64,000 bases of DNA from an uncultured Acholeplasmatales bacterium (GTDB taxonomy: Bacteria; Bacillota_I; Bacilli_A; Acholeplasmatales; Anaeroplasmataceae), in NCBI GenBank assembly GCA_944323055.1, contig CALUQZ010000004.1:1-64000 (forward strand). Direction: 5' to 3'. Every line of letters begins with the position of its first letter. Position 1 is the stretch's first letter. Positions 1,340-59,943 of this stretch are shown here, piece after piece. Both the position numbers and the translations under genes were made by a program. The notes below the pieces were generated by a model. That model was not told the DNA's origin and did not search any database. It saw nothing but the letters and a program-made list of their open reading frames with translations.

Positions 1340-3206
1340 AATATGCCTCTAAATAAATAATTAAAACTGTTATATCAGCCGGATTAACTCCACTAATACG
1401 TGTCGCTTGCCCAATCGTTTGTGGTCTTACTTTTTTTAACTTTTCCCTAGCTTCTAATGCTAAATTTTGAATTTTATCATAATCAATTTCTAAAGGAATA
1501 ACTTTATTTTCATAAATACGCATCTTTTCAGCTTGCGCTAATGTTTTAGCTATATAACCTTCATATTTAATACTTATTTCTATTTGTTCTAACACATCTT
1601 CTGCTACATCATTTAAATCTTCATAAATATTATTAGCTTTACAAATATTTAAAATATCTATGATACTTAAATCTGGTCTTTTTAATAGATTATAAATAGT
1701 TGTTGATTCTTTAACTTGTTCTATTCCTTTTTTAACAAAATAATTATTTAAAAAATTAACTTTAATCTTATCTACTTTAAATCTATCATAATAAAAAGCT
1801 ATTTTTTCTTTCTTAACAATAAATCTACTATATTGAGCATCATCTATTAAACCATAATATCTACCATATTCTCTTAATCTTAAATCAGCATTATCATGTC
1901 TTAATAAAAGACGATATTCAGCTCTAGAAGTTAATAAACGATAAGGTTCATTAGTCCCCTTAGTAACTAAATCATCAATCATAACGCCAATATAAGCTTC
2001 ATCTCTTTTTAAAATTAATGGCTTCTTGCCTAAAATACTACTAGCTGCGTTAATACCAGCTATAAGTCCTTGACCTGCCGCTTCTTCATAGCCAGATGTT
2101 CCATTAATTTGACCAGCTGTATATAAACCTTTGACAAATTTAGTCTCTAATGTCGGATAAATATTTAATGGGTTAATCGCATCATATTCAATAGCATAAG
2201 CATATCTTTTGACTCTTGCATTTTCTAAACCTTTTAACATATGAATCATCTTATCCTGAACTTCTACTGACATCGAAGTAGAAAATCCTTGAATATATGT
2301 TTCATCAAGTTCTAAACTTTCAGGTTCAAAAAAGATTTGATGTCTGTCTTTATCTTTAAATCTAACTATTTTATCTTCAATAGATGGGCAATAACGAGGA
2401 CCAATTCCTTTAGCTACTCCACCATACATAGCACTATCATTTAAATGTTCTAAAATATAATTGTGAAGTTCTTTATCAGTATAAGTTAAATAACAAGGTA
2501 CATTAACACCTAAAATACTCTCATAACCAGGATCAAAAGAAAAATGTCTAGTTTTAGCATCACCGGCTTCTAATTTAGTTTTACTAAAATCAATAGAATC
2601 AGTATAAATACGAGCGGGAGTTCCTGTTTTAAGTCTCTGTATTTCAAAACCTAATTCTTTTAATTGTTTAGATATACCATAACTAGTTCTTTGACTATCT
2701 GGTCCCTCATCTAAAGTGACTTTACCTCTTAAAATACGACTATTTAAATAAGTACCAGTTGTTAAAATAACTTTCTTACATTCTATATTTTTACCATCTT
2801 CTAAAACAATACCACATACCTTATTATCTGCGACATTTAATCCCATAACTATAGCTTCTAAAAGGTCTAAATTAGGTGTTTTTTCTAAATGCTCACGCAT
2901 CTCTTTAACATATAACAATTTATCTTCTTGAAAACGTAAAGCCCAAACAGCTGGACCTTTTGAACTATTTAAAAGTTTAGTTTGAATTTGACATAAATCA
3001 GCATTTTTGCCCATATATCCACCAAGGGCATCAATTTCTCTGACAACTACTCCTTTAGCTGGCCCACCAATTGAAGGATTACAAGGCATAGAACCACACA
3101 TATCTAAATTACCTGTAACAAGTAATGTCTTAAGTCCCATCTTTGCACAAGCTAAAGCAGCTTCACAACCAGCATGACCAGCTCCGACAACTACAATATC
3201 ATACAT
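1329..3206 (-). CDS. mnmG: tRNA uridine-5-carboxymethylaminomethyl modification enzyme MnmG
   Basis: MnmG (GidA) is the FAD-binding partner of MnmE that modifies the wobble uridine U34 of several tRNAs. The N-terminus has the dinucleotide-binding motif VVGAGHAGCEAA, then PCNPSIGGPAKG with the conserved cysteine, GTYLNSRILRG, and AGQINGTSGYEEA for the second FAD contact. I chose the ATG at 3206, not the GTG at 3215, because AGGTG lies six nt before it; the protein is then 625 residues, the normal length. It starts nine nt after the aminopeptidase stop. Confidence 0.96.
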   Translation of the reverse strand: MYDIVVVGAGHAGCEAALACAKMGLKTLLVTGNLDMCGSMPCNPSIGGPAKGVVVREIDALGGYMGKNADLCQIQTKLLNSSKGPAVWALRFQEDKLLYVKEMREHLEKTPNLDLLEAIVMGLNVADNKVCGIVLEDGKNIECKKVILTTGTYLNSRILRGKVTLDEGPDSQRTSYGISKQLKELGFEIQRLKTGTPARIYTDSIDFSKTKLEAGDAKTRHFSFDPGYESILGVNVPCYLTYTDKELHNYILEHLNDSAMYGGVAKGIGPRYCPSIEDKIVRFKDKDRHQIFFEPESLELDETYIQGFSTSMSVEVQDKMIHMLKGLENARVKRYAYAIEYDAINPLNIYPTLETKFVKGLYTAGQINGTSGYEEAAGQGLIAGINAASSILGKKPLILKRDEAYIGVMIDDLVTKGTNEPYRLLTSRAEYRLLLRHDNADLRLREYGRYYGLIDDAQYSRFIVKKEKIAFYYDRFKVDKIKVNFLNNYFVKKGIEQVKESTTIYNLLKRPDLSIIDILNICKANNIYEDLNDVAEDVLEQIEISIKYEGYIAKTLAQAEKMRIYENKVIPLEIDYDKIQNLALEAREKLKKVRPQTIGQATRISGVNPADITVLIIYLEAYYGK

Positions 3207-4286: not shown

Positions 4287-5928
4287 ATAATTTGAATGAC
4301 GACTTAAGTTCACAGCTTCTATTAAATACTAAATTAGAATCTGTGCTATCTTTATCTAAAATATAATAACCATTACGAACAAATTGATAATGTGTGCCAA
4401 TTTGGTCATCTTTAAATGATTCTTCTACATACCCTTCATAAACATGTAATGAATTAGGATTTAACTTTTCCATAAAATCTAAATCTTTATTCTCAGCTGT
4501 TTCATCTAACATAAGTGGTTCAAATTGTCTAAATGTAGCCTTTAAAGCTGTCGTAGCTTCTACAAAATGAATATTACCATTAGGTTTTCTACCTTCAAAG
4601 CCCGTACCTGATTTAGTTTCCGGGTCATATGTACAATGAATCTCTACAATATTACCATTTTCATCTTTAACAACACTATTACATTTAACAAAATAAGCAT
4701 GCATAAATCTAACTTCTACATCTTTAGCAAGTCTTTTCCATTTCTTATTAGGCTTTTCTTCTAAGAAATCTTCTTGTTCAATGTAACAATATTTAGAAAA
4801 GGCAATCTTTCTACTTCCTAATTCTTCATTTTCTGAATTATTAGGACAATCTAAATATTCAATTTGCCCTTCAGGATAATTATCAATAACAACCTTTAAT
4901 GGGTGAACAATCGCATGTTTACGCATAGCTTTTAACTTTAAATCTTCTCTTAAAGCTTCATCAAGCTGAGAACTATCAACCGTACTATTAACTCTTGATA
5001 AACCTGTACTTAAAATAAAGTTTTTAATAGCTTCTGGCGTAAACCCTCTTCTTTTTAAACCCACTAAAGTAGGCATTCTTGGGTCATCATAACCACTAAC
5101 TTTTTTACTATCAACTAATTGTTTAATATAACGTTTAGACATAATAGTATTAGTAATATTTAAACGACCAAATTCATATTGATGAGGAACATGTTCCATT
5201 TCACACTTCTCAATAAACCAATCATATAAAATACGATGGTTATCATATTCTAGTGAACATAAAGAGTGAGTAATACCTTCAAAACTATCTTGAAGTGGAT
5301 GAGCAAAATCATACATTGGAAAAATACACCATTTATTACCTTGACGATGGTGATTAATGTGCATAATACGGTACATTGCTGGATCACGCATATTCATATT
5401 AGGATGAGCCATATCAATTTTAGCTCTTAAAGTCTTTTCACCATCTTTGTATTTGCCTTGACGCATTTCTTCAAATAACTTTAAATTTTCTTCAACACTA
5501 CGATCACGGCAAGGTGAATTAGTACCTGGAGTAGTTAAGGTACCACGCATTCTAGACATTTCTTCTTGTGATAAATCATCAACATAAGCTAAACCTTTTT
5601 TTATCAAAAGAATAGCTTTCTCATAAGTTTTTTCAAAATAATCTGAGCCATAGAAGACATTTTTAGGAGTATAACCTAGCCATTTTAAATCGGCAATTAT
5701 ACCATCAACAAATTCCTGTCCTTCCTTAGCTGGATTTGTATCATCAAATCTTAAATTAGTATATCCATTAAAAGCTTTAGCCAACTCAAAGTTAGTAATA
5801 ATAGCTCTTGCATGACCAATATGTAAATAAGCATTAGGTTCTGGTGGAAACCGAGTAATTATTTCATTTACACGTCCTTCTTTAAGATCATCTTCCATAA
5901 TAGTTTTAATAAAATTATTAATTTCCAT
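4285..5928 (-). CDS. glnS: Glutaminyl-tRNA synthetase
   Basis: A class Ic aminoacyl-tRNA synthetase that charges tRNA-Gln directly. It has the ATP-binding HIGH motif (FPPEPNAYLHIGHARA, near residues 27-42) and the second motif TIMSKRYI. The 547-residue length is typical of bacterial GlnRS, including the C-terminal anticodon-binding beta-barrels. Most Bacilli lack GlnRS and use Glu-tRNA(Gln) amidotransferase, so its presence is a useful phylogenetic mark and may reflect old transfer. It has its own promoter and a terminator at the stop codon. Confidence 0.96.
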   Translation of the reverse strand: MEINNFIKTIMEDDLKEGRVNEIITRFPPEPNAYLHIGHARAIITNFELAKAFNGYTNLRFDDTNPAKEGQEFVDGIIADLKWLGYTPKNVFYGSDYFEKTYEKAILLIKKGLAYVDDLSQEEMSRMRGTLTTPGTNSPCRDRSVEENLKLFEEMRQGKYKDGEKTLRAKIDMAHPNMNMRDPAMYRIMHINHHRQGNKWCIFPMYDFAHPLQDSFEGITHSLCSLEYDNHRILYDWFIEKCEMEHVPHQYEFGRLNITNTIMSKRYIKQLVDSKKVSGYDDPRMPTLVGLKRRGFTPEAIKNFILSTGLSRVNSTVDSSQLDEALREDLKLKAMRKHAIVHPLKVVIDNYPEGQIEYLDCPNNSENEELGSRKIAFSKYCYIEQEDFLEEKPNKKWKRLAKDVEVRFMHAYFVKCNSVVKDENGNIVEIHCTYDPETKSGTGFEGRKPNGNIHFVEATTALKATFRQFEPLMLDETAENKDLDFMEKLNPNSLHVYEGYVEESFKDDQIGTHYQFVRNGYYILDKDSTDSNLVFNRSCELKSSFKL

Positions 5929-6076: not shown

Positions 6077-9000
6077 TTAATAATTACTAGCAAATTTTAA
6101 TGTTGGATAATTAGCTAAATCATCTAAATTCCATATATCTTCAGCAAAGCCAAGTTCTATCCAGAATTCTTTATCCATAATTTGGTCTTTACTAGCTAAA
6201 TAAATATTATTGAGTTCATCTACATATTGCTCATCTAGCGTGTAACAATTAGTTGTCTTTGCTCTACTGTGTGTCACATCATTAATTGAAACTGAATTAG
6301 ATAAGTAGAAATTAACGTTAACATATCCAATTATACCAATATTGCTGCTGATATTTCCTAAATTTATTAGATTGCTACCATAGGCAGCCCCTGTATTAGT
6401 TGAACCAATGATACCAGCATTAGTACCAACACTTGAAACATCTCCATAGTTGATACAATCATTTATATTTAAAATATCCGTAGTTCCACCAATAATGCCA
6501 CCAATTTCATTTTCTATACCTATAATATTACCGTAGTTAACTAATTGGGCAACACTTATACTAAACCATGCTGTACCAATAATACCACCTACATGTGATT
6601 TACCAGAGATTGTAGCGTGGTTAATTATTCTAACTATATTATCTCCTTCTCCACTTAAAGCAGTTAAACCACCAACATGATCCAAACCAGTTATTGAACC
6701 AGAAATCGTAACATTAGAAATAGAATTAGAAGATATTAGACGACCAACTAGACCACCAGCTGAAGATGAACTTTCAATAACGGCATTTTCTATAACCACA
6801 TTATTTACTACACCATTTATAATGGCACCAGCAAATACCCCAGCATAAGCTTCTGTTACATCTTCAATAATGATATACGGATTGACAAAAGTAATGTTTT
6901 CTACATACCCTGTAAATCTACTAAATAAACCATAATCTATAATATTATTAGTAGATAAACGGCTTTGTAGAGAGAAGTTCAATAATTTATGATTATCACC
7001 AATAATAACACCATTAAATTCTTTGTTAAATAAATTGCCATTTACACTTGAGAAGTCGATATCTTTAGTTATGACATAAACATGATAATTTTCTAGATTT
7101 GCAAAATCACTAGCTTCATCAATTACTAATAATTCATCACTATCGACAACATATAAATTTGCTGTTAAATTATAACTTTGAATCGTAGAGTTACCCTCTA
7201 AAGAATATTCAACATTTTTCAAAGTAATAGCCGAAGTATTATCATTAGAACTAATTCTAACTTCACTGTCACTAATTACTTCTATTTCTTCTTTAGTATA
7301 CGTTTTTTGACTTGTCTCAATACTTTCAATTTGATAGCCTTTAGTACCATCAAATTTTAAGCTAATTTCCTTTTGACCCTTAACAGCAAAAGGTAAATCA
7401 CGTGATGAACCAAAATAAGATACACCTAAATCACCTAAAACAAATACTTCATTAACATAATCAGTAAATAGATTTTCTTTAAGTTCAATCTTATCATCAC
7501 CTACTGAAATTAAATAGCTATAACCTGTTAAGACAACATCATAACTACCACCTAAAGTTTCTGGAACAAATCTAATTATTATAGAATCTCCATCAACACC
7601 AAATTGAGCAGCATCAAAACGAACGTCATTAATATATAAGGCCGTTAAATTTAAGTTATTAGGATTATCTAACTTAACTCTTATATGAATTTCCTTACCA
7701 ACCAATAAAGAATCACTATTAATAACTTCAAAACCTATTACATTAACTTTAGCACCTGAAGTCCCGTATTCTTGAGTTATTTGATCCTCTGTAACAACTC
7801 CGCTGCCATCATTTAAATTATAAGTGTAAGTTGTAACAATCCGGTAGAATTGACTGCCTGTCAAACCTACAAATTTTCGAACAGACAAATCTTCCAAAGT
7901 TTGAACAACTTCACCTTTCATATCTAACAATTCAATATTAATAATAGTTAATGTATTGCTGTCATCCTTAATAATGTAATCAAAGAAGATTTCACTATCT
8001 GTACAAGATAAATCAGTATAAGTTAAAGAAATATCATATTTTTTAGTATTTACATCGAGAGTAACTATATTATATTGCACACCTAAGCCATCATTTAAAT
8101 CATAAGAATATGTACAAACGAAGTTATAGGTATTATTACTATAAAGACCTGATGCGTTCAAATCTTCTAAAGTCAACTGTTTAGTTTCCTTATTATTTAT
8201 ATATAGAATACCTGATTCAAAATTAAATATATGATCTAAATCAATTAATTCATATTTTAAAGTAAATGAATCATATGTTGCTTCTACAATAGAGAAATTA
8301 ATTGTTGGAGTTATCAAGGCTTTAGTAGTAATCTCATGTTCTACTGCTTTAATTTGTTTACCTTTTAAATCACCTAAATCATATTCATAAGTTAAAACTA
8401 CACGATAAGTATTATTTGAATATAAATTATCAAATGTCGCAGCCATACCTTCAGAAACTAGTTCATCCCCAAGGTATAACTTAATGTTTTTAATAAGACC
8501 AGCTGTATGGATATCAGAAATAACTGGACTAGCAACTATAGTAGTCTTTGTAGCATCTAAATTAAAGTCCACTTCAGGCATCAATTTAGCTGTAGTAATT
8601 TCTTGTTCATAAACAATTTCATGTGAACCAGTACCATCATCTAAATCATAATTATAATAAATCTTAATAATATAGTTAGTATTAGGATTTAAACTATCAA
8701 AACTAAATGAATTAGCTACTGTTACTTGTTTTAAGAAATTATTATCATCATCAAACAATCTAATAGCTGATATTTCCCCAATAACATTCGGATCTGTTTC
8801 TATTATGTCATAGCCTATTGAGTTTTCAGTTATAGAGTATGGTGAAATCTTAAGAGTTGGTACTTGTTTAGCTGTACTAAAAGATATACTTAACTCTTCT
8901 TCTTGAATACCATTACCCTCATTTAAATCATAAGAATAAATAACATTAATTTGATACTTCGCGTTTGATTTTAAATCTTTTATTTCTTTAACATAATTAA

Positions 9001-10435
9001 TATCATCTGATACTTCAATAATATTACCTTCCTCATCACATAATTCATAATATTTAAAATTAAATATATTATATTCATCTATGACATTAAGCTCTCCCAC
9101 AAAGTTAAGATCATAAATATTATATTTAAGTGATAAAGTTGGTGCATCTATTTTAGAAGTTTTAATAGTAATTTCTTTACTTGTATTTTGTATACCATTA
9201 CCATCATTTAAATCATAGTAAATAGATAATACTAAGCGATATTCGGTATTACTTAATAAATTTATAAGCTCTTCATCTTGTTTTACTAATTCATCTCCTT
9301 TATATAAAGAAACACTTTGACTATTAACTAAATTATTTAAATCATTTATTTGACTTTCATAAGTGATTGAATTATTAGTAGCTGTAGCTGCTAATTTAGT
9401 AATTGTAGGAACTTCATAAGCTAGAGTGCTTACACTATTATAAATATGATAGGTTTCATCTTGATAAGAAAATACTAATTCTATTTGATAAGTACTATTA
9501 GATAAAAGACTACTAACATTAGTATTATCTTTAATATTTATTACATTACCATTATTATCAATTAAACTAATAGTAGAAATTGTTGCATTATCAACATTAT
9601 TAATTATTTCATAATTAAAACTATCATAACTTACATCATTAATTTTAATATCTACTGGAGCCGCTGTTCTAAAATCACCTTCAGCTAAAATATAAGTTTT
9701 AGAACCATTACCATCTAAAATATCTAAATTTAAAGCTATAACATAATGATAATTAGCGCCTGTCCTTAAACTATCTACTGTTATTATATTTTCTTCTAAC
9801 ACTTGACTAAAAACAATTAAATCATCTTGGTCAAATACATAAAATCTAAGATTTGAATTAGCTAAAATATTATCATTATCAACTATTTGTAACATGGCAT
9901 TAAAAGTTGTATAAGTAACTGACATATCATACATACTAACAGTTGGTAAATCTTGATAAGTAATACCAACATCAACACTTTTATTACCATTAGACATATC
10001 AACATCTTTAATGGCTTGTTTATCTATATATTTAATATTATCAACATAATAATTAAACACGCCTGGTTCACTAGGTGCTGTTACACTTAAGATGATATTT
10101 TCACTATTTGAACCATCAACAAACTCAAATGTTTGATATTTAATTTCATTAATAGTTATAGATAAAATTTCAAATTGACTAGGGTTAGTTAAATGTATTA
10201 CTAAATTAAATTTTTCATTTGGCTTTACAAAATAACTTAACCCAGAATCAACATTAATATCAGGTACAGCATGTTTCATATTTTTACTAGTTTCAGTAGT
10301 ACTAGAATTAGTAACTACATTAACACCTTGATATATTGGCACTATTTTTTCTTCTGTTACCGTCTCTGTGCCATTACACGCAGATATTATAAATAACATT
10401 ATTAATGCAATAAAAGATAATAAATATTTTTTCAT
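6077..10435 (-). CDS. Large surface lipoprotein with repeated Ig/Fn3-like domains and GLUG-type C-terminus
   Basis: A 1452-residue exported protein of unknown function. The N-terminus is a lipoprotein signal (MKKYLLSFIALIMLFIISAC), so it should be anchored outside the membrane. The middle consists of about ten beta-sandwich-like repeats of roughly 90-95 residues, seven of which contain a recognisable loop such as YDLNDGNGIQ, an acidic D-x-N-D-G-x-G pattern that could bind calcium. From about residue 1155 to 1400 there are GLUG-like repeats (GGLVGRL, GGIIGT, NYGNI) common in surface proteins. It overlaps the upstream membrane gene by ATGA and has GGAGG before its start. Its N-terminal half is paralogous to that membrane protein. 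Confidence 0.85.
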   Translation of the reverse strand: MKKYLLSFIALIMLFIISACNGTETVTEEKIVPIYQGVNVVTNSSTTETSKNMKHAVPDINVDSGLSYFVKPNEKFNLVIHLTNPSQFEILSITINEIKYQTFEFVDGSNSENIILSVTAPSEPGVFNYYVDNIKYIDKQAIKDVDMSNGNKSVDVGITYQDLPTVSMYDMSVTYTTFNAMLQIVDNDNILANSNLRFYVFDQDDLIVFSQVLEENIITVDSLRTGANYHYVIALNLDILDGNGSKTYILAEGDFRTAAPVDIKINDVSYDSFNYEIINNVDNATISTISLIDNNGNVINIKDNTNVSSLLSNSTYQIELVFSYQDETYHIYNSVSTLAYEVPTITKLAATATNNSITYESQINDLNNLVNSQSVSLYKGDELVKQDEELINLLSNTEYRLVLSIYYDLNDGNGIQNTSKEITIKTSKIDAPTLSLKYNIYDLNFVGELNVIDEYNIFNFKYYELCDEEGNIIEVSDDINYVKEIKDLKSNAKYQINVIYSYDLNEGNGIQEEELSISFSTAKQVPTLKISPYSITENSIGYDIIETDPNVIGEISAIRLFDDDNNFLKQVTVANSFSFDSLNPNTNYIIKIYYNYDLDDGTGSHEIVYEQEITTAKLMPEVDFNLDATKTTIVASPVISDIHTAGLIKNIKLYLGDELVSEGMAATFDNLYSNNTYRVVLTYEYDLGDLKGKQIKAVEHEITTKALITPTINFSIVEATYDSFTLKYELIDLDHIFNFESGILYINNKETKQLTLEDLNASGLYSNNTYNFVCTYSYDLNDGLGVQYNIVTLDVNTKKYDISLTYTDLSCTDSEIFFDYIIKDDSNTLTIINIELLDMKGEVVQTLEDLSVRKFVGLTGSQFYRIVTTYTYNLNDGSGVVTEDQITQEYGTSGAKVNVIGFEVINSDSLLVGKEIHIRVKLDNPNNLNLTALYINDVRFDAAQFGVDGDSIIIRFVPETLGGSYDVVLTGYSYLISVGDDKIELKENLFTDYVNEVFVLGDLGVSYFGSSRDLPFAVKGQKEISLKFDGTKGYQIESIETSQKTYTKEEIEVISDSEVRISSNDNTSAITLKNVEYSLEGNSTIQSYNLTANLYVVDSDELLVIDEASDFANLENYHVYVITKDIDFSSVNGNLFNKEFNGVIIGDNHKLLNFSLQSRLSTNNIIDYGLFSRFTGYVENITFVNPYIIIEDVTEAYAGVFAGAIINGVVNNVVIENAVIESSSSAGGLVGRLISSNSISNVTISGSITGLDHVGGLTALSGEGDNIVRIINHATISGKSHVGGIIGTAWFSISVAQLVNYGNIIGIENEIGGIIGGTTDILNINDCINYGDVSSVGTNAGIIGSTNTGAAYGSNLINLGNISSNIGIIGYVNVNFYLSNSVSINDVTHSRAKTTNCYTLDEQYVDELNNIYLASKDQIMDKEFWIELGFAEDIWNLDDLANYPTLKFASNY

Positions 10436-11300
10436 AATTTTCCTCCAAGCCCATGTTTTAATACTATTATTCTTTCACCATTACCATCAAATAAATCATA
10501 AGTAATTGTTATTCTCAATTCAATATTGCTATATTCATTATCTAAAATCAACATTCCACTATTAGCTATATCATTAAATAATAAATTATTATCGGCATAA
10601 ATAGCTATTGTATAGTCTTTAATTAAATTGTTCTCATCGATTAAAGAAACATTATAATATAATTTATTTTCTGAAATTAATAAATATGTTTCATTTGTAT
10701 CAAGCGTAGGTTCTTGATATTCTTTAGTTTTAATTACTAATTCTTTTACTATATATTGTTTGCCATTGCCATCAAGTAAATCATATTCAACTACTAACAA
10801 CAATTTATATTCACAATTGCTAAATAAATCAACAAAATCGCCATTTTCTTGTATTAATTGTTCTCCTAAATATAGATTAACGCTCTTATTGGTAATAACA
10901 TTATCTATATCTTCTAATTTGTAATCATAAGTAATTGTTCTTGGGGTAGAACTAGCATTAAAATCTAATATTTTAGGTGCTTGTAGTTGTTTTGTTTCAA
11001 AATTAAAGGAAAATGAATCTGTATATATTTTATCTAATAATAAATATTCATAACTTACTTCTACTAAATATGTTTTATTAGTTAATAAATTATTAAATAA
11101 AACATTTAAACCATTTTGTTCACTAATAAGTTCATCATTATAATATAACTTAGTAATAACTTTAGTTACATCATCTTTAGCTGTATAGTCAACTGTTAAA
11201 CTAGTATCATCTACCTTTGTTGTATAACTTATACCTACATCAGTTGTAAAATTACTTTCATATAACTGCTGTTTTGTTATTCCCATACCATTTAAAATAT
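7800..11300 (-). repeat. Coding repeats shared by the lipoprotein and the membrane protein
   Basis: Repeat units of about 260-290 nt recur near 7808, 8085, 8375, 8632, 8922 and 9205, with another loop near 9710 and further copies in the upstream gene near 10478, 10765 and 11286. The most conserved part codes for the YDLNDGNG-type loop and reads on the plus strand as variants of CCATCATTTAAATCATA. The copies are diverged, so they are old duplications. Confidence 0.7.
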
Positions 11301-12111
11301 CTATTTCTACATATATAACTAACTTATATGTAGTGTTTTTTAATAAATTATTAAACTTAATAGATTCTTGTTTAATATCTACTATTAAAGAATCAACAAC
11401 TTCATTATTTAAATATAGTAAAACATTTAAATTATTTACAATTCCATAATAATCAAATAAATCATAATCTAAAACATATGATTTATCATCATATTCTTCT
11501 TTTATAACTTTAATTTCTGGCAATTTGTCATATTCTTTAGCTATAAGAATACTTCTATCACCTGCAAATTTAGCATTTTCGATCTTATCTTTATCTATAT
11601 ATCGTAATTCATCAATATAAAGAGTTTCAATACCAGGATTACTATCTAAATACATAATTATATAAATAGTATCATTAGTGGAATAATCAGCAAAATTAAA
11701 ACTTGAGTATCTTGTGTCATTTATAACTAAAGAAACAATTTCAAAATCATCAGGATTATCGAGGTAGATAGCTACAACTAATCTTTCATTGACTTTAGCA
11801 TAATAATCTATGTCACTATCTTTTATATCTTCACTTTTAACCATATAATTTAACGAAATATTTGTAGGAGCATCTACTACTTCCATTCCTAAATAAGTAG
11901 GAATGGTTCTAGTATCAATAAATAAAAATAAACATATAACTATTACTGTTATAGCTAAAATAAATGAAGATGTAATAGCTAATCTTAATTTAATTCTTCT
12001 TTTCGGTTTTGATTCATTAAAATTTAAACTCTTTTTGACATTAATTAAATCATATTTAGCCTTATCTTCTTTTAAAAATTCTTTTTTATATCTTTTTTTA
12101 ATCTTTAACAT
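10432..12111 (-). CDS. Single-pass membrane protein with extracellular repeat domains, in anti-sigma position
   Basis: A 559-residue protein. Residues 1-42 are very basic and would be cytoplasmic, residues about 43-65 form one membrane helix, and the rest is predicted outside. The outer part begins with an IPTYLGMEV segment paralogous to VPIYQGVNV at the same place in the downstream lipoprotein, and contains at least three D-x-x-D-G-x-G repeat loops (IDILNGMG, YDLLDGNG, YDLFDGNG). It starts 10 nt after the ECF sigma gene. I see no zinc-binding anti-sigma domain, so an anti-sigma role is inferred only from position and topology. It ends with TGA overlapping the lipoprotein start. Confidence 0.8.
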   Translation of the reverse strand: MLKIKKRYKKEFLKEDKAKYDLINVKKSLNFNESKPKRRIKLRLAITSSFILAITVIVICLFLFIDTRTIPTYLGMEVVDAPTNISLNYMVKSEDIKDSDIDYYAKVNERLVVAIYLDNPDDFEIVSLVINDTRYSSFNFADYSTNDTIYIIMYLDSNPGIETLYIDELRYIDKDKIENAKFAGDRSILIAKEYDKLPEIKVIKEEYDDKSYVLDYDLFDYYGIVNNLNVLLYLNNEVVDSLIVDIKQESIKFNNLLKNTTYKLVIYVEIDILNGMGITKQQLYESNFTTDVGISYTTKVDDTSLTVDYTAKDDVTKVITKLYYNDELISEQNGLNVLFNNLLTNKTYLVEVSYEYLLLDKIYTDSFSFNFETKQLQAPKILDFNASSTPRTITYDYKLEDIDNVITNKSVNLYLGEQLIQENGDFVDLFSNCEYKLLLVVEYDLLDGNGKQYIVKELVIKTKEYQEPTLDTNETYLLISENKLYYNVSLIDENNLIKDYTIAIYADNNLLFNDIANSGMLILDNEYSNIELRITITYDLFDGNGERIIVLKHGLGGKL

Positions 12112-12121
12112 CTACCATCAC

Positions 12122-12622
12122 CTACAATTCTTGTCTCAATTTAGCTAAGGCTTTTTTATAAATTCTATGAATCTCTGATTTTGAAATATCATGTAATTGC
12201 CCTATCTCAACAAAAGTCATATTAAACACAACGTGAAGGTTTAAGATATCATATTCAAGTGGTGTTAAAATAGCTTTACATAAATCTAATAAATGCGTTT
12301 TATCATAATCAGGAATCTTGTTAATGTATTCAGAATTAATATAGGCTCTTTTGTTTTTATTATCTCTTAAATATCTTTTAGCATTATTTTTAGCTATCGT
12401 AATTAACCAATATTTAAAAGATTTATTAACATCATGTTGTTCTATATGATTATATAAATCAACAAAAGTATCTGATGTTAATTCATTAGCAGTTTCATAA
12501 TCATTAACTATCTGATTTATTACATAAAAAACTAATTTGTAATATTCTTTATAAATGATATCAAAAGCTTTTTCATTTTTCAGTTTTAATTCCCTAATTA
12601 ATTTACTCTCATCTTTTAGCAT
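12122..12622 (-). CDS. ECF-type RNA polymerase sigma factor
   Basis: A 166-residue sigma-70 family protein of the extracytoplasmic-function type. The region 2 helix carries AFDIIYKEYYKLVFYV and TANELTSDTFVDLY; region 4 has TPLEYDILNLHVVFNMTFVE followed by the HTH ISKSEIHRIYKKALAKLRQ. The start at 12622 is chosen because AGAGGTGG precedes it; upstream codons in the open frame look like leader sequence. It is first in an operon with a membrane protein and a lipoprotein, suggesting that it senses surface events and may control this operon and others. Confidence 0.93.
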   Translation of the reverse strand: MLKDESKLIRELKLKNEKAFDIIYKEYYKLVFYVINQIVNDYETANELTSDTFVDLYNHIEQHDVNKSFKYWLITIAKNNAKRYLRDNKNKRAYINSEYINKIPDYDKTHLLDLCKAILTPLEYDILNLHVVFNMTFVEIGQLHDISKSEIHRIYKKALAKLRQEL

Positions 12623-12702
12623 AAAGCCACCTCTAATGATCTTTTCAGAATATAAGATACAAAAAACTACAATTTTTCCCAAATAATTATGTTATTTTTT
12701 TA

Positions 12703-12745: not shown

Positions 12746-14077
12746 TTACCTTATATCATTAATAAATCTCTTTAATAAAAAAGTTAAAAAATAAGGAAAA
12801 GTATAAAATTTACCATTAAATCCGATGTTTTTTTCGCACAGTTTAATGCCATATTTTACATAACTATATTTCGGATTATCAATCAATTTATTTAACGAAA
12901 TAGTAGAGCTATCTTTAGCTTTAACTTCAATTGGAATAATACTATCTGTATCTCTAATTATAAAGTCAATTTTAATTGTTGACTTGTCATTTTTATAATA
13001 GTAAAGAGGAACTCCTGCCTTCACTAGCATATCCGCAACTATATTTTCATAAATACCACCTTTATAAGTATTAAAATTTTTATTAAATCTTAAATCTTTG
13101 TTTGATTCTTCATCTAAAGAAGCTACTAAAAGGCCTGTATCCATAAAATAAACTTTATAATTATTTAAATCATAATTTCCTTTTAATGGTAATTCTAAAT
13201 TTTTTGATAAATAACAAATATTTATAATACCAGAATCATTAATCCAATCTATAATGCCTATATATTCTCGATTTCTAGCATTTGAATCAATTTTTGTTAT
13301 TTGATATTTTTTATTATCTTTACCTAAAAAATAGCTATATTACGATAAAATCTAGCAATTTTAGCTTGATCTAATCCTCTTGCATATTTTCTAATATCTT
13401 CTTCATATGCTCTTATAATTTGTTGTTGAATTTGATATGTTCCCCCATAATTTTTGTTTTCAACAAAAAGAGATACCACTTGTGGCATTCCACCGAGCAC
13501 CATATATTCATGAAAAGCCTCTAAAAAAACCGACATCTGCGTATTTGATAAAGGTTCTAGCCTAATCATCTTTTTATATAAATCTTCAATTTGTTCTTCA
13601 TGATAACCTAATGCCCATAAATATTCTTCAAAATCTAAGGAATACATAGTTACTTCTTCTTTGTATCCAACACTAACCGAATCAATCTCTTTATAATTTA
13701 ATCCCATCATACTACCTGAACATATAACATCATATCTACCATCTAAGTAAAAAAAATTTCAAAGATGTGACACAATTAGGGCATTCTTGCATTTCGTCAA
13801 AAAATATTAAAGTTTCATTAGGCTTAAATATTAAGTTTGGATTTCTAAGTGTTATATTTTGTAATATTTTATTAACATCATATCCATCAGAAAATATATC
13901 TTTTTATTCCGGATTATTAACAAAATTAATATTTATAAAATACTTATAATTACTCTTACCAAAATAACTAATTGAATATGTTTTGCCAATTTGTCTAGCC
14001 CCTCTAATAATTAAAGGATATCTATTATCTTTACTTTTCCAATTTAATAAAAATTTTTCCATCTTTCTTTTTAACAT
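12746..14077 (-). pseudogene. Decayed AAA ATPase / DUF4143 gene (three lesions)
   Basis: Joined across frames, this is one gene of the ATP-binding protein family with an N-terminal AAA domain and C-terminal DUF4143. From the ATG at 14077 it encodes the P-loop IIRGARQIGKT, then an in-frame TAA at 13904-13906; reading on gives the Walker B segment LIFFDEMQECP. A one-base excess in a run of eight T (13749-13756) breaks the frame before YLDGRYDVICSGSMMGL. A one-base loss in a T6 run (13326-13331) separates FYRNIAIF from LGKDNKKYQI. The last part has a PD-(D/E)XK-like pattern, KIDFII ... IPIEVKA. No fragment is likely to be functional alone. Confidence 0.85.
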
Positions 14078-52446: not shown

Positions 52447-55400
52447 CTAAAGTAAACCTTTAAATAATAAAGCTAATGAAATACCAAGCATACTAGTTTG
52501 AGCAACTAAAGCTACTACAGCACTATAATCGAAACCATTAGTTGTAATATTATCAACAACTTCAGCATCAGCTTCAATCATTGCTAAATATTCATTATAT
52601 GAAGCTACTAATTGATTGTATTTTCTTAAATCAAGAATATTTCTTTCATCACGAGATAAACTATTCATTTGACTAGCTATATCTTTCAATTTATTCAAAT
52701 CACTTAATTTAAATGTTGTATCTAAATTATCTAATGAACTTTGAACATTTCTAACAGCACTACTACCTTGATTTCTTAATAATTCATATAGTTTGTATCT
52801 TGCATCTTCTATCTTATTCTTCATAGAAGTAACTTCATCAGCTGTATAGCCAAATTTAGTCAAATCTTGAGTTAAAGCATTTAAGATAGTTACCGCATTT
52901 GTAATTAATTCTTCATCATCTACTGATACACTATCTACACTAGGAATTTGATCAATTATTCCTAAGAAGGCAAGAGTATTATTATCTTTAGCTTCATAAT
53001 CACTTCTTATAGCTTCACTAATATCACCAAAATAGCCTTCATAAATTAATGTATCATAACCAATTAATCCTTCATTAGCTGGTAAAATCAATGTTAGATT
53101 ATTTATTGTTCCTACCCGGTCAACAAATTGATAATATGGATATGGATTAGTAAATAAATGATAAGCATAATTAAATAATTCATAGCCTGGATCACCTATT
53201 TCTATTTCACCATCTTCAATTATATAACTTTCTAATTTAGGAGCTGTAAATGTTCTAAATTCGACAGTTTCTAACTTATCATAATCATAGAAAGCAAAAT
53301 TAGAGATAACTTCTAATGTATCAGGGAATACAAGATTGACAATATTCTTATTCATATTGCCTGCATAAGGTTCTATAACTTTAGTATTATCTAATACTTG
53401 TAATGTTTCAACATTTAAAGCAGCCGGAACTTGACTTAAAGCTAAAGAACCATTTTCTAAATAAGTATATAATACTCCATTAGATAAACGAACATAATCA
53501 TTAACTTCTCCGTCCCTCTTTAATGTTCCGTTATCATCATAATTAAATGTTTCTAATCTAGTTGAACCAAAGAAGACGTTGTGACCAATATGAGTCAATT
53601 TATTTGATATCGTAAATGATGTTAAATTTAGGCAATTACTAAAAGCAGCAGAACCTATATAACTTAAATTTGGTAAACTGATACTAGTCATATCCGTACC
53701 TTGGAAAGCATAATCACCTATATAATTTACTAAATTAGCATTATTGATATTAGTTAAATTAGTATTAGCAAAAGCTCCATAATTAATAGTAGTTGTTTTT
53801 GCTAAATTAACATTAGTTAAATTAGTATCGTTAATAAATGCTCCATCAGCTATTGTAATAATATTTTCTAAATTAATATTAGCTAATTTAGAACAATTAC
53901 TAAAAGCATTTTCCGCTATATAATTTAATGTTGTAGGTAAAACAACTGTAGTTAAAGCTTGACAATTAGCAAAAGCAGATGAACCTAAAGATGTTAATCC
54001 TTCTGGTAAAGTAATACTTTCTAATTTGTTAGCTTCACTAAATGCTCCTGCTTTAATCTCTTTTAAACTTGCACCTAATGTAATTGAGGTAAAAATAGGG
54101 GCTGTTGCTTTACTATCAACTTTAGAAAATGCATAAGAACCAATTACTTCAATAGTTTCTAAATTAACATCTATTAAATTACGACATTCTGCAAAAGCAT
54201 AATCTCCTATTTCAATAGCATTTATTAAATTAGCCTTAGATAAAGACGTATTTTGATAGAATGCATAATTGCCTATTTTGTTGACCGCATTTTCTAAATT
54301 AATGTTAGCTAAACGGTTATTATAAGCAAAAGCATAATCACCAATCGTGTTATTATTACCTAAAACAACTTCAGTTAAACTATAATTAGAACTAAATGCA
54401 TAAGGACTAATAGTAATATTATCACCTAAAGTAACTTTTTCTAATGTTGTACTAGCAAAACTATAATTACCTAAACTTGCATTAATATTTACATCTTTTA
54501 AAGCAGTGTTATAAAAAGCATAATCACCAATTTCAATTGCCTTATCTAAATTGTTAACAGTTATTAATTTAGTATTAGCATAAAAAGCATGATCTAATAT
54601 TTTAATACCAACTGTATCAGGTAAATTAATAGTTGTTAAATTAATACAATTACTAAAAGCATTTTCCCCAATTATTGTGTTAGGATTTGTAATTGTAACT
54701 GATGTTATAGTTTCGTTATTAGCAAAAGCACCTTGAGCTATTTTAGTTACTGTATTTGGTATTGTAAAATCACCTAAATTAGCTTCTTTAGCTATTAAAA
54801 TAATCTCACTTAAATCCTTATTATATAAAACAGCATTATTTTCTGCATCAGTTTGATAATATGCACTACCTGATACAATAAAACTATTTAAATTAGTTTC
54901 AGCAAAAGTATCAATTCCTAGGCTAACAATCTCTGTCAACTCATTAAATGTTAAACTAGTTAATTTAGTTGAACCAGCAAATACTTCATCACCTAAAGTA
55001 AAACTAGAATTTGGTAAAACTAGATTTTCTAAGTTTTTGTTATTTGCAAAAGCTCTATTATAAATATATTCTACTTCTCCATTAAATGTAATGCTATTTA
55101 AATTAGTATTTTCAAAAGCACTCGTACCAATATAAACTAAATCATTTTCAAATGTAACACTAGTTAAAGAGCTACAATTAATAAAACAATTTTCAGGAAT
55201 TATGTTTTGTCCTAAACTAATAGATACTAAACCAGAACCATTAAACATACCACTAGCTAATTTAGTATTAGGACTCATAGTAATATTTGTTAAACTTGTA
55301 CAACCTTTAAATATTTCTTTACCACTACTTCTTAAAGTTGATATATTCACATTATTTAAACTTGTACAATTCTCAAATACATTATAAGAAATTGAATAAA

Positions 55401-58400
55401 CTTCGCTTAAATCAACTGTAGTTAAACTACTACAATTTTTAAAGGCCTCATATTCAATTGTAGTAACATTTTCTAAATTAATTTCTTTTAATTTTGGACA
55501 ATTATAAAATGCCATAGCTTCAATTGTTGTTACTGTAGAAGGTAAAACAACTTTTTCTAAATTAACTAAATTAGCAAAGGCCATTTTACCAATTGTAGTT
55601 ACTCCTTCAGGAATAACAACTGATGTTATTGTTTCATTTATTTGTGGAACTTTATTAGCATCTAAATCATCTTCTGTAACTGGAACATTATAATCAATAT
55701 TATAAAGAGCAAAAGCGTATGGAGCAATTTCCATTAAACCTTCATCATCTGGTATAACAATATCTCCACCAACACCTTTATAATAATTCAATACTCTGTT
55801 TTCAATCACAAAAGGATCCTTAACATTAACAGACAATAGGGCCATCATATTAGATTGTTTACCATCTACACTAATACTTAATCTTATTGTTGTTGTACCT
55901 TCACTAAGAGATGAAACAACACCATCTTGAGTTACCGTAGCAACTCTTTCATTAGTACTAGAATACGTAACTTCATATCTATCGCTTGGTAAATACCATG
56001 GTTCAATATTATAAGCTAATTGTATTTGTTCACCAGGATAAATTGAAACTACAGCTGCCCCTACATTATTCTTAGGTAACGATGAAATTAACGTTCTATT
56101 TACCTCATTACCTAAAACATTGGCCTCTCCGGCAGCTGGATGTCCTTTAATGACATCAAAATAGATAAAGTTAATACTTTCTAATTTAGCATCATCTAAT
56201 GCTTGATTACTTGTTCCATTAACTCTAATTGTAATACTTGCACTTTCAACATTAAAGCTTGGATTAGACACTGTAATTGTTGCCGTTCCAGCCTTCAAGC
56301 CAATAACTTCACCTTTATCAACAATTGCAACTTCTGGATTTGATGAAGTCCATTCTAAATAATCTAAATAATCTTTACCAACTGCAATTTGTGCATCTGT
56401 TGATGTTAAATATTCTGTTAAATCTAGAATTTCCCCAGCTTTAATTATTTGTTGTGTTTTACTTGCACCATCTTGAGTGCCATCTGAAGTAAACTTTAAA
56501 TTACCTTTTGTTCCTGGTAAAGAACATAAATAAATATTTGAATTTAAAGCGTAATCATCAATAACAAAAGCTAAAGTATTAGTAGATACTTCATCAAAAT
56601 AAATACTTTCTAAATAATCAGTAATTTCAAATCTAACAGTTGTCTTTTCCCCTTTATCCCCATATACAGGATATGGATATTGTGATAAAGTTGTATAACT
56701 TGAACCATCTTCAGTAAATAAAATTGGAGTTACAGATTGAACATATTGATTATCGGAAACTGTTAAAGTGACATAATATCTATCTTCTTTTAAAGTCTTA
56801 TCATAAACTTTTTCATATTCAGCGCCTAAAATGATTGGAGCTTCATCATCTAAAGTAAAATTAAAACTATAGTTATTTCTAACATTACTACTTACGCCAC
56901 CATCACCATAATCTAAATATGCTTGCATCTTAAATTCATATTCTCTATTATTCACTAAATTAAGGTCTATAGGGTCTATTTCTAATCTTTCAAAATACGG
57001 AACCTGACCTGCTCCACTATTAGAAAAAGCTTTATTACAGTTATAATCACTAAACTCATAAATTACTTCACCAGTAACTGTATCAACAATAGTATAATCC
57101 ATTTTCATTACATTACGTAATAAACCAGTATAAATACCATTGATTCCATTTATAGTTCCTGTATTACTTGAAATGACAATATGATCTTCTCGTGCTGGGA
57201 TTTGTGTATATTGTGATAAATCCATTTCATATACATATGTACCTAAAGATATAACATAACTATCATAATATGTTCCAAATGGTACTGTTGCATAATAATC
57301 AGCTTTTAATTTATCTTCCTCATCAATAGAATTATCATATGCTTCTGACTCTACTTCATAAAATGTTTTATCAAAAATAGGTGCTTCTGTCCAATCGCCA
57401 TAAAAAGCTAAAAAAGGCACATTTAGAGGAATATCATTATTATCACTTGCTGGTTCTAATTTTACAAACCCCTCTACATACATTCCATGTGGGAAAGAAC
57501 TTTCTATATAATCTTTATCTATATCTGTTAGACTATATGTAATAGTAACAACTGCCGTTGAATTTGGTTTAACAGTAATACTTCTACCACTTACACTTCC
57601 ATTAGTAACACTATTAATATCTAAAGAACCATTTAACATATAGGCTTTTTCAGCAACATAATCATTATCACTTGTTGAAACTGATTCTGTCATACCAGCT
57701 ACCGATAAATCATATACTAAACTTTCAGAAGAAATATTAGTAATGTTAAAGGTCATTTTATAAACGCCTGTTCTATTTTTATCATCACCAAGTTCTAGTT
57801 TAGCTCTATTTCCTGTTTCAACACCTTCATATGCTGTATCAGTAACTGATATATAAGCATTAGTCGTTGTAGCATTTAAAAGACTAGCTAGACCAGCCCC
57901 TTGTTTACGTGGAGAATAAGGATTTCCTTCTTCATTTAAAGCTATTGTAGCTGTTGACATTAATAATTGATATGCTAAATCAGATATTTGTTTAGAAGAA
58001 TAATCTGGATATTTTTCTTTTAAATATTGTCTAATTAAAACGACAATACCACACATATTAGGACATGCCATAGAAGTCCCACTCATCTTGTCATATCCAC
58101 CACCAGGTACAGCAGATACAATGTTACCACCATGAGCTGTAATTTCTGGTTTTAATTTTAAATCAGAAGTCGGACCCCAACTTGAAAAATCTGACATAAA
58201 AGGACCAGCTTCATATTTATCATTAAATGTTAAAATGCCTGTTCTATTTTGCGCTAAAACATCACCAACATCTTTAGTTACTGAAATAGCTGGAAAATCA
58301 GTAACTTTACCAGTCGACATAGTTATATCGCCTGGAACATTGTTATAAATAATAATTCCAATAGCTCCTTCATCTTCAGCAATAGCGCATTTTTCTTCAA

Positions 58401-59943
58401 ATGTGTTATCTCCTCTTTTTACTAAAGCTATTTTACCCTCTACATTTATATTCTGATAATTACTTCTTAAACCATAACCAGGAACTGTTACATATTCTAT
58501 TTCTGTATTTGTTGTACTAGTTATACCTAAATCATCATAAAAATTATTATAATAAATTCCTGTGGCATTTGAACTTGATTCTTCATAGAAGAAAATAAAG
58601 TTATCTGGGCCTACTATATAATTAGATTTAGTGCCACTTATTGAAGCTACTGATAAAGCCCCATAATAAGTAGATGGTGAACCAACAGTTGATGATTCTG
58701 GATTTGTAACTTTATTTGTATTTGATTCTTCACCACCAAAACCAGAACTATAACTATTACTAGCTGCCACTATTAAACTAATTCCTGAATTGTTAATTGA
58801 ATTATAAATGCTATTTAACACTTGATTATCATATTCTCTAGAAAAACCACAAGATGTACCAAGTGACATATTAATAGCATCTACTCCAAGTAAAACCGCA
58901 TCCTCTAATCCAGCTAATAAATCTTCCGTATCAGCACCTTCACTTAAATCAGAGAAAACCTTCATTAATACTAATTGAGTATGTGTAGCAACACCAGTAA
59001 AATTATCATATGTCGAACCATCATTAGTTTCAATAGCCCCATCATACTTTCCACCAATAATTCCAGCTACGTGTGTTCCATGAGTTGATAGTGTTGGTTC
59101 AACATCAAAATCAAAATCAGCATAATCATATGCAAAAGGTACCTTAACATTTTTATAAACATCATCAACAATTAAATCTTTTGTATGTTCATAAGCTACT
59201 GTATCTTCTAATATACTAGCAACATCTTCTTTTACAATAGCCGGGTTAGTTGGATTACTATTTTGAAATACTTCATGAGATATATCAAAACCACTATCTA
59301 ATATAGCAACTGCTGTACCTTCACCATTATATTGTACACTTGAAGAATCAAAGATACCCGTATCATACACATCAACTACATTAGTAACCGCATCACTAGA
59401 AACCGCTGTAGATTGCGGTAAATTATATGTTTCAGACATATAAGTGTTTAATACATGATCAATTTCTCCAATGTTACTTAAATTACCATATGTTGTTTTA
59501 ATTGCAATACCATTTAAAATAGTATTATATTGATATAAAACTGTCTCAACATATCCATTACTCTCTAATTTAGAAATTAAAGCATTTTGTTCTTGTTTTA
59601 ACTTCTTAGCTTTATTTAAGCCTTCATTGCTGTTTATATAATCAATCACATTTTGATATTTATCAGCATAATTAGCATTGTATTCATCAATTAATGAATT
59701 GCTATCTAATTCAATAATTACTGATATTTCATCACTATCTAGATAACCATTATTTTCTTTGATAGCTTCTGCCTTCATCATATTTAAACGAGATTCTTGT
59801 GATACTTCAGCATCAGTTAATAATAATGGTAAATTATTATCAACTGTAGAAACACTATCTGTATTAGAGCTAACACAAGCCTGACAAGCTAAAATTAAAG
59901 AAGCTCCTAATAATGTCATTAATCTTTTAATAAAAACTCTCAT
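52447..59943 (-). CDS. Giant cell-surface subtilisin-like protease with leucine-rich repeats
   Basis: A 2498-residue secreted protease of family S8. After a signal peptide (MRVFIKRLMTLLGASLILAC) and a propeptide-like region, the catalytic triad is Asp216 (ILDSGFD), His288 (HGTHVAG) and Ser624 (MSGTSMACP), with the oxyanion Asn in VAASN. A PA insert occupies about 440-570 (EGKIALVKRG), as in C5a peptidase and lactocepin. Fn3-like and two Big_2-like domains follow (about 650-1375), then LRR_5 repeats (about 1395-2230), a helical segment and a C-terminal hydrophobic anchor (residues 2475-2498). No LPxTG. GGAGG precedes the start; it follows the opp genes. Confidence 0.93.
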   Translation of the reverse strand: MRVFIKRLMTLLGASLILACQACVSSNTDSVSTVDNNLPLLLTDAEVSQESRLNMMKAEAIKENNGYLDSDEISVIIELDSNSLIDEYNANYADKYQNVIDYINSNEGLNKAKKLKQEQNALISKLESNGYVETVLYQYNTILNGIAIKTTYGNLSNIGEIDHVLNTYMSETYNLPQSTAVSSDAVTNVVDVYDTGIFDSSSVQYNGEGTAVAILDSGFDISHEVFQNSNPTNPAIVKEDVASILEDTVAYEHTKDLIVDDVYKNVKVPFAYDYADFDFDVEPTLSTHGTHVAGIIGGKYDGAIETNDGSTYDNFTGVATHTQLVLMKVFSDLSEGADTEDLLAGLEDAVLLGVDAINMSLGTSCGFSREYDNQVLNSIYNSINNSGISLIVAASNSYSSGFGGEESNTNKVTNPESSTVGSPSTYYGALSVASISGTKSNYIVGPDNFIFFYEESSSNATGIYYNNFYDDLGITSTTNTEIEYVTVPGYGLRSNYQNINVEGKIALVKRGDNTFEEKCAIAEDEGAIGIIIYNNVPGDITMSTGKVTDFPAISVTKDVGDVLAQNRTGILTFNDKYEAGPFMSDFSSWGPTSDLKLKPEITAHGGNIVSAVPGGGYDKMSGTSMACPNMCGIVVLIRQYLKEKYPDYSSKQISDLAYQLLMSTATIALNEEGNPYSPRKQGAGLASLLNATTTNAYISVTDTAYEGVETGNRAKLELGDDKNRTGVYKMTFNITNISSESLVYDLSVAGMTESVSTSDNDYVAEKAYMLNGSLDINSVTNGSVSGRSITVKPNSTAVVTITYSLTDIDKDYIESSFPHGMYVEGFVKLEPASDNNDIPLNVPFLAFYGDWTEAPIFDKTFYEVESEAYDNSIDEEDKLKADYYATVPFGTYYDSYVISLGTYVYEMDLSQYTQIPAREDHIVISSNTGTINGINGIYTGLLRNVMKMDYTIVDTVTGEVIYEFSDYNCNKAFSNSGAGQVPYFERLEIDPIDLNLVNNREYEFKMQAYLDYGDGGVSSNVRNNYSFNFTLDDEAPIILGAEYEKVYDKTLKEDRYYVTLTVSDNQYVQSVTPILFTEDGSSYTTLSQYPYPVYGDKGEKTTVRFEITDYLESIYFDEVSTNTLAFVIDDYALNSNIYLCSLPGTKGNLKFTSDGTQDGASKTQQIIKAGEILDLTEYLTSTDAQIAVGKDYLDYLEWTSSNPEVAIVDKGEVIGLKAGTATITVSNPSFNVESASITIRVNGTSNQALDDAKLESINFIYFDVIKGHPAAGEANVLGNEVNRTLISSLPKNNVGAAVVSIYPGEQIQLAYNIEPWYLPSDRYEVTYSSTNERVATVTQDGVVSSLSEGTTTIRLSISVDGKQSNMMALLSVNVKDPFVIENRVLNYYKGVGGDIVIPDDEGLMEIAPYAFALYNIDYNVPVTEDDLDANKVPQINETITSVVIPEGVTTIGKMAFANLVNLEKVVLPSTVTTIEAMAFYNCPKLKEINLENVTTIEYEAFKNCSSLTTVDLSEVYSISYNVFENCTSLNNVNISTLRSSGKEIFKGCTSLTNITMSPNTKLASGMFNGSGLVSISLGQNIIPENCFINCSSLTSVTFENDLVYIGTSAFENTNLNSITFNGEVEYIYNRAFANNKNLENLVLPNSSFTLGDEVFAGSTKLTSLTFNELTEIVSLGIDTFAETNLNSFIVSGSAYYQTDAENNAVLYNKDLSEIILIAKEANLGDFTIPNTVTKIAQGAFANNETITSVTITNPNTIIGENAFSNCINLTTINLPDTVGIKILDHAFYANTKLITVNNLDKAIEIGDYAFYNTALKDVNINASLGNYSFASTTLEKVTLGDNITISPYAFSSNYSLTEVVLGNNNTIGDYAFAYNNRLANINLENAVNKIGNYAFYQNTSLSKANLINAIEIGDYAFAECRNLIDVNLETIEVIGSYAFSKVDSKATAPIFTSITLGASLKEIKAGAFSEANKLESITLPEGLTSLGSSAFANCQALTTVVLPTTLNYIAENAFSNCSKLANINLENIITIADGAFINDTNLTNVNLAKTTTINYGAFANTNLTNINNANLVNYIGDYAFQGTDMTSISLPNLSYIGSAAFSNCLNLTSFTISNKLTHIGHNVFFGSTRLETFNYDDNGTLKRDGEVNDYVRLSNGVLYTYLENGSLALSQVPAALNVETLQVLDNTKVIEPYAGNMNKNIVNLVFPDTLEVISNFAFYDYDKLETVEFRTFTAPKLESYIIEDGEIEIGDPGYELFNYAYHLFTNPYPYYQFVDRVGTINNLTLILPANEGLIGYDTLIYEGYFGDISEAIRSDYEAKDNNTLAFLGIIDQIPSVDSVSVDDEELITNAVTILNALTQDLTKFGYTADEVTSMKNKIEDARYKLYELLRNQGSSAVRNVQSSLDNLDTTFKLSDLNKLKDIASQMNSLSRDERNILDLRKYNQLVASYNEYLAMIEADAEVVDNITTNGFDYSAVVALVAQTSMLGISLALLFKGLL
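53265..55760 (-). repeat. BspA-like LRR_5 repeats inside the protease gene
   Basis: About 35 units of roughly 21-24 codons, with the consensus L-x-x-I-x-L-x-N-x-x-x-I-G-x-x-A-F, for example LVNLEKVVLPSTVTTIEAMAF. Treponema/Bacteroides BspA-type repeats are usually found in adhesins, so the protease may bind host or food proteins through them. Confidence 0.8.

Follow-up and report, generated by a model that had tools for sequence, protein, structure and literature searches.

A probable anti-sigma factor with a short zinc-free tail, encoded beside an ECF sigma factor in an uncultured Acholeplasmatales bacterium

Class I anti-sigma domains (ASDs) average 101 ± 33 residues, and CnrY, a class II anti-sigma factor, wraps its sigma factor with two helices that embrace sigma2 and sigma4 (PMC7406223, PMC4598750, PMC8103513). 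RsiV is cleaved at site 1 between residues 66 and 67, after its transmembrane (TM) segment (PMC6066255), which by our arithmetic leaves a tail of ~40 residues. The N-terminal domain of RsgI6 covers residues 1–54 (PMC12203970). A short zinc-free anti-sigma tail is not new in kind, because CnrY, RsiV, and RsgI all have one. Here, we analyzed the first 64,000 nucleotides (hereafter the window) of contig CALUQZ010000004.1 from an uncultured Acholeplasmatales bacterium, where 10 nt separate the open reading frame (ORF) of an extracytoplasmic function (ECF) sigma factor (12122–12622) from a downstream gene for a 559-aa membrane protein (10432–12111). This protein is quite probably the cognate membrane-anchored anti-sigma factor of that sigma factor.

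The cytoplasmic tail of the protein, MLKIKKRYKKEFLKEDKAKYDLINVKKSLNFNESKPKRRIKLR, has 43 residues, including 17 Lys and Arg, 5 Asp and Glu, no Cys, and no His, and is directly followed by the single hydrophobic segment. The start codon agrees with relatives L037 and L038, with which residues 1–13 align without gaps. A sequence-only reading of this DNA had proposed a new anti-sigma factor with about 42 cytoplasmic residues, dense in Lys and Arg and lacking the Cys and His of a zinc anti-sigma domain, and our counts bear out each of these descriptions. The Lys/Arg stretches it quoted are real but lie mostly outside the conserved part of the tail, whose core, L22 to F31, is the stretch between them. 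It had also proposed that any control of the sigma factor would act through a new short motif: judged by the Pfam and NCBIfam scans of its members, the tail is new as a sequence family, but as a kind, the short zinc-free tail was already established by CnrY, RsiV, and RsgI.

The described systems resemble this protein in different respects. Like the zinc anti-sigma factors RsiW and RsrA (class I ASD), it is encoded beside an ECF sigma factor, but its tail is 43 residues long instead of ~100, or at least 50, and lacks the HxxxCxxC motif. A canonical anti-sigma gene elsewhere in the genome, which the sequence-only reading had named as counter-evidence, was not found with zf-HC2 (no match at E ≤ 1), the only anti-sigma family searched genome-wide. 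With CnrY (CnrH–CnrY, PDB 4CXF), it shares a zinc-free cytoplasmic tail of similar length and an ECF sigma partner. CnrY, however, is a 95-residue chain, too short for the FN3 ectodomain of the window protein, it belongs to a cobalt/nickel system of Cupriavidus, and its helical wrap is only weakly suggested for the window tail by our models. RsiV, from the SigV system of Bacillus and Clostridioides, is likewise an ECF partner from Firmicutes with a tail of ~40 residues by the arithmetic above; its ectodomain is a lysozyme receptor, whereas the window protein has no DUF4179 or DUF3298 match in Pfam or NCBIfam. RsgI of the SigI/RsgI systems of Clostridium thermocellum has the same arrangement of short N-terminal domain, TM segment, and sensor ectodomain, but the window protein carries no RsgI Pfam domain, and the window sigma factor is an ECF and not a SigI.

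The association with a sigma factor is conserved. Homologs of the window protein occur in 7 of 55 genomes of the family, and the seven found in the same genus, including one from the window genome itself, are all encoded behind a sigma factor. The genus thus has eight cassettes with the order sigma factor, single-pass short-tail protein, and lipoprotein (two in the window genome, one each in G031 and G037, and two each in G032 and G034), and M1, K9, L22, and K26 are common to their tails. Among named relatives, the closest sigma factors come from uncultured Acholeplasmatales genomes assembled from metagenomes, and we place the window in that order accordingly. Over the order, the sigma profile matched 102 of 160 genomes, and 74 distinct ECF loci were readable in the part of the listed matches that was analyzed. 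A membrane protein with a short tail is encoded directly downstream in 72 of the 74 (70 of 72 once near-identical sigma factors, defined by a shared 40-residue stretch, are collapsed). The 72 intergenic gaps range from −71 to +10 nt, most often −4. Each partner has at least one predicted TM segment, preceded by 36–83 residues (median 50) as counted with a simple hydropathy rule, which overlooks the first TM segment in some of the smallest proteins. The net charge of the tail is positive in 70 of the 72 partners; Cys is present in 6 tails and His in 29. The 74 loci remained from 87 rows after removal of partial or edge copies of sigma genes, a degenerate sigma-like ORF (L002, 477–926), and four Bacteroidota loci (L090–L093); when named genomes were scanned with the sigma alignment A3, the matches were three contigs of metagenome-assembled genomes already in the set and the four Bacteroidota loci, which stand outside the counts. 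Apart from two loci, in G033 and G035, the sigma factors surveyed have a membrane partner that is encoded directly beside them and inherited with them.

Two types of tail are distinguishable. Type 1 (profile A4, 15 rows including the window) has the core L..IK..L.F around K26, and M1 and K26 are its only invariant columns. Type 2 (profile A5, 18 rows) reads like KKEL..LIK.KA.EI.IPD.S..IL.KV. As read from these alignments, the conserved columns are not merely Lys and Arg. The types were assigned by eye, and the profiles agree for 36 of 39 untrained tails, the three disagreements (L108, L054, and L137) being all low-scoring.

Searches with the tail alone, which the sequence-only reading had suggested as a check, link both types to ECF sigma factors. 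The type-2 profile, for which only genomes of the order had been used, gave the strongest single result: it made 21 matches at E ≤ 0.001 across 296 genomes of the class, and an ECF sigma gene directly precedes every one of them, including the 9 outside the order. The type-1 profile gave 19 matches at E ≤ 1.4e-8 in the 160 genomes of the order, all on sigma-adjacent proteins and most in or near the training set; the next match (4.8e-4) is at a locus without a sigma gene. In 395 genomes of the class, it gave seven matches outside the order at E ≤ 0.003. The two best, in G445 and G318 (2.0e-5 and 8.9e-5), are directly behind ECF sigma genes, and the match in G194 follows a sigma fragment (profile E 7.6e-4). 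With these three sequences added to A4, a search of 392 genomes of the phylum re-found G445, as a member, and identified G380 (1.4e-4), again directly behind an ECF sigma gene; the matches in G554 (sigma match of 5 bits only) and G627 (no sigma factor) add no pair. In G194, the type-1-like tail (E 1.5e-3) is joined to an RsgI_M domain (4.1e-18; L197, 627–2231), and RsgI_M is present on two ECF partners, L197 and L136. The end of the ORF preceding L197 resembles sigma region 4. A profile of the eight same-genus tails, run on 2216 ORFs of the loci analyzed, reached beyond the genus in three proteins (E 2e-4, 7e-4, and 5e-3) and missed the other distant type-1 tails; its match to L182 (4.3e-5), where the locus has no sigma gene, was discarded as a false interior match. 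Sequence searches of the PDB with the tail profiles returned only coiled coils and other chance-level matches, and not CnrY. Conservation of the tail among homologs, the absence of which would have counted against the sequence-only reading, is therefore evident from both alignments and searches.

The tail also follows the phylogeny of the sigma factor. On a quick maximum-likelihood tree of 72 sigma factors, tail type requires a single change (SH-aLRT 96) and taxonomic family nine. The nearest neighbors of each sigma factor have the same tail type in 19 of 19 and 53 of 53 cases. Distances between sigma factors and between tails are correlated (r = 0.72, a value reached in 0 of 2000 permutations), as joint inheritance alone would produce. 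Within type 1, partners of the FN3 type require two changes on the tree found, of which the starred branches alone force only one (L063 and L054 are long branches, and the label of L054 is doubtful). The clade of the window sigma factor is sister (support 89) to sigma factors whose partners are membrane proteins of 95–119 residues without ectodomain that retain the tail. In our reading, these small type-1 partners have two TM segments; the hydropathy rule counts one or two. With a single change in tail type against a variable outer half within type 1, the tail is the part that tracks the sigma factor.

A promoter-like site is shared by the cassettes of the same type. The sequence GGAAAA-N15-18-TCTTAT is found upstream of three of the four, and G034 has GGAAAT instead. 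After this site was seen, the sixth base was widened by eye to A or T, and in each of the four cassettes the widened site precedes the first gene by 49–88 nt. It has no other match in the 431,516 strand-bases of same-genus sequence examined, a count that is descriptive only, because the pattern was derived from those sites. The narrow pattern is not rare, with at least one match in 22 of 100 shuffles of the window. In its own genome, the pattern has three matches against six for a reversed control, so that no regulon beyond the operon itself can be claimed. Type-B cassettes have no GGAAAA-type promoter, with one looser site in L039. The site resembles ECF promoters with GGAA-type −35 elements, and its agreement across four divergent upstream regions suggests autoregulation.

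In the genome, Sigma70_r2 matched at six places, corresponding to three ECF sigma factors, each with its own adjacent partner, two other sigma factors, in our reading likely SigA and a SigH-type factor, and one weak match. One Peptidase_M50 gene, encoding a site-2 protease, was detected. The window protein itself has no Pfam or NCBIfam match above cut-off (the sole Pfam match at E ≤ 1 is unrelated, 0.85), nor have its near homologs, nor has the tail in the family members scanned. Matches to fn3 below threshold were found in two homologs. In the AlphaFold2 model of the window protein, the ectodomain is predicted with block pLDDT values (predicted local distance difference test) of 64–91 from residue 191 and appears as tandem FN3-like domains, and Foldseek ranks FN3 tandems highest, though at low whole-chain TM-scores. 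This model resolves neither the tail nor the TM segment, which is not a helix there. The ectodomain also aligns with the co-encoded lipoprotein (32% identity over residues 49–546 of the membrane partner, E 5e-46), to which it is paralogous judging from the alignment.

A joined sigma–tail chain, made by translating across the TAG that separates the two genes in two relatives, was also modeled (five sequences, no tail-less control). Its sigma blocks have pLDDT values mostly of 75–92 outside the linker. The modeled sigma factor resembles that of SigW–RsiW (Z 15.7, root mean square deviation [rmsd] 4.6 over 156 residues), CnrH–CnrY (Z 13.9, 4.2 over 151), and RpoE–NepR (Z 11.7, 4.4 over 152), whereas values over both domains reach ~21–28 for promoter complexes. 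An rmsd of 4.2–4.7 to the three anti-sigma complexes is suggestive of a closed sigma factor in the model. Helices are present in the tail in both models, at low pLDDT.

These data fit the standard scheme of a membrane-anchored anti-sigma factor, since the protein is single-pass with its N-terminus predicted inside, its tail is linked to the sigma factor, and it has a putative outer sensor, a site-2 protease in the same genome, and an ECF-like promoter before the operon. In the resting state, the ~43-residue tail, through its core L..IK..L.F and probably as two short helices, would bind the sigma factor and block its access to RNA polymerase, perhaps by wrapping around a closed sigma2–sigma4 arrangement as CnrY or NepR does. 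The FN3-like ectodomain would sense the state of the envelope or surface, and a signal would free the sigma factor, most simply through regulated proteolysis by the one site-2 protease detected. The freed sigma factor may then transcribe its own operon, encoding the sigma factor, the anti-sigma factor, and the large surface lipoprotein, from GGAAAA-N16-TCTTAT. Because the ectodomain and the lipoprotein are paralogous, one may speculate that the sensor and the surface protein under its control respond to a common ligand or assembly state. On the anti-sigma role as such, the proposal of the sequence-only reading is largely supported by sigma pairing, tail conservation, and tail–sigma linkage; that the tail binds and inhibits the sigma factor is our inference.

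Several observations weigh against this interpretation. Pairing and tree congruence are silent on the sign of the effect. Matches inside the order are partly circular, because the profiles were trained on sigma-adjacent proteins, and four of the seven type-1 matches outside the order have no sigma gene in the locus. The link between type 1 and type 2 is weak, in the same register but with an hhalign probability of 17% (E 0.0015), and CnrY shows no sequence similarity to the tail profiles (hhalign E 0.8–1). The tail is modeled with low confidence, with block pLDDT values of 45–56 in the joined chain and ~23–32 in the window protein, and in the joined chain its first helix continues the last helix of the sigma factor, a second short helix coming next. 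SigG1, from a structure titled without an anti-sigma factor, fits the modeled sigma factor equally well (Z 12.8, rmsd 4.5 over 133), so the closed form may be a bias of the method; the complexes of RseA, MucA, RskA, and RsbN fit worse over both domains (rmsd 7–12). Finally, G035 has an intact sigma factor of the family with no partner behind it (the best tail match, E 0.052, is noise), and in G033, the partner is stopped at the start of the TM segment, leaving an intact sigma factor and a 50-residue tail ORF.

The last two loci would fit a dual or positive regulator of the FecR kind, whose tail is needed for sigma activity after the signal, if the free sigma factor is inactive or weak, and the pairing evidence suits such a regulator equally well. 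FecR-like cytoplasmic domains are longer, ~80 residues, than the window tail. Together with the lack of any FecR match in Pfam scans of the window proteins and near homologs, and with the type-1-like tail on an RsgI_M protein, this makes a dual or positive role unlikely. Control of the sigma factor chiefly at the level of its own transcription, or by a different protein, with the membrane protein modulating or localizing it, could draw on the promoter-like site common to the cassettes and on the orphan sigma factor of G035; we regard it as improbable to a greater degree, given that a partner is kept in 72 of 74 ECF loci and that zf-HC2, within the limit given above, is absent from the genome. 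Least probable of all is that the tail is a mere positive-inside topology signal in a surface-protein operon without sigma contact, for although a Lys/Arg-rich tail is expected of any membrane protein with its N-terminus inside, positive charge is near general, and lipoproteins with the same ectodomain are co-encoded, the conserved columns are not just Lys and Arg, the profiles find sigma-adjacent proteins in other orders, the tail, unlike the variable remainder of the protein, follows the sigma tree, and small partners without ectodomain retain it.

Table 1. Features of the sigma factor/membrane protein operon in the window
Feature	Position	Strand	Basis
Candidate anti-sigma factor, 559 aa, single-pass, ATG start	10432..12111	−	ORF, hydropathy, homologs behind sigma factors
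ECF sigma factor, 166 aa	12122..12622	−	Pfam Sigma70_r2 3.9e-15, Sigma70_r4 2.9e-08; TIGR02937 sigma70-ECF above cut-off
Cytoplasmic tail, residues 1–43, type 1	11983..12111	−	Profile A4, tail-only searches
Conserved core of tail, residues 22–31, L..VK..L.F	12019..12048	−	Tail alignments
TM segment, ~residues 44–66	11914..11982	−	Hydropathy, one segment; end points by eye
Ectodomain: low-confidence N-terminal beta region and ~four FN3-like beta sandwiches (predicted)	10435..11913	−	AlphaFold2 model, Foldseek
Co-encoded lipoprotein, 1452 aa, with the same ectodomain module	6077..10435	−	4-nt overlap with anti-sigma gene
Predicted ECF-type promoter of the operon, GGAAAA-N16-TCTTAT	12652..12679	−	Pattern common to same-type cassettes

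Upstream of the sigma gene, a DUF4143 gene is apparently in at least two pieces (12746–13144 and 13324–13710, minus strand); the DUF4143 match is to the first, and assignment of the second to the same gene is our reading. Farther away, 52447–59943 (minus strand) encodes a 2498-residue surface protein that, as read from its sequence, resembles a subtilisin-type protease followed by leucine-rich repeats. Variants of the cassette were noted in other genomes. The partnerless intact sigma gene is at L143 (G035:C6), 2609–3103, on the minus strand. At L044 (G033:C9), ~4420–4700, the 50-residue tail ORF still scores as a type-1 tail (16.5 bits) and is possibly a natural soluble anti-sigma factor, or an early stage of decay. 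The neighborhoods of L045 (G032:C9) and L040 (G031:C13) are the same; G031 has the whole cassette and G032 only a shortened lipoprotein gene, the sigma factor and its partner appearing to have been lost. In G034, a degenerate 149-residue sigma-like ORF (L037, 4169–4618, plus strand) lies just upstream of the real sigma gene, behind the shared promoter-like site. The ectodomain module is also carried by giant proteins (L043, 3014–12235, 3073 residues; L079; L085), among them open frames of ~4,690 residues in G149 and G076.

A wider generalization is possible but doubtful on present data: type-1 and type-2 tails may form one minimal zinc-free anti-sigma domain of ~35–50 residues that has no relation to the ASD classes known so far. 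This domain would be the usual ECF regulator of Acholeplasmatales, would occur also in neighboring orders, and would act as a plug-in, attached to membrane sensors of the FN3, RsgI_M, small, or bare kind but locked to the sigma lineage. Neither the tail sequence family nor its host group seems to be described in the Pfam and NCBIfam scans or in the literature matches listed, among which none concerned ECF control in relatives of wall-less bacteria. By its sequence, the tail marks ECF regulators that went unrecognized by Pfam and NCBIfam in the members scanned. This opens dozens of sigma/partner pairs and a candidate autoregulated promoter to direct tests, and a 43-residue tail attached to a variable outer half offers a compact natural unit for the minimal sequence that may hold an ECF sigma factor.

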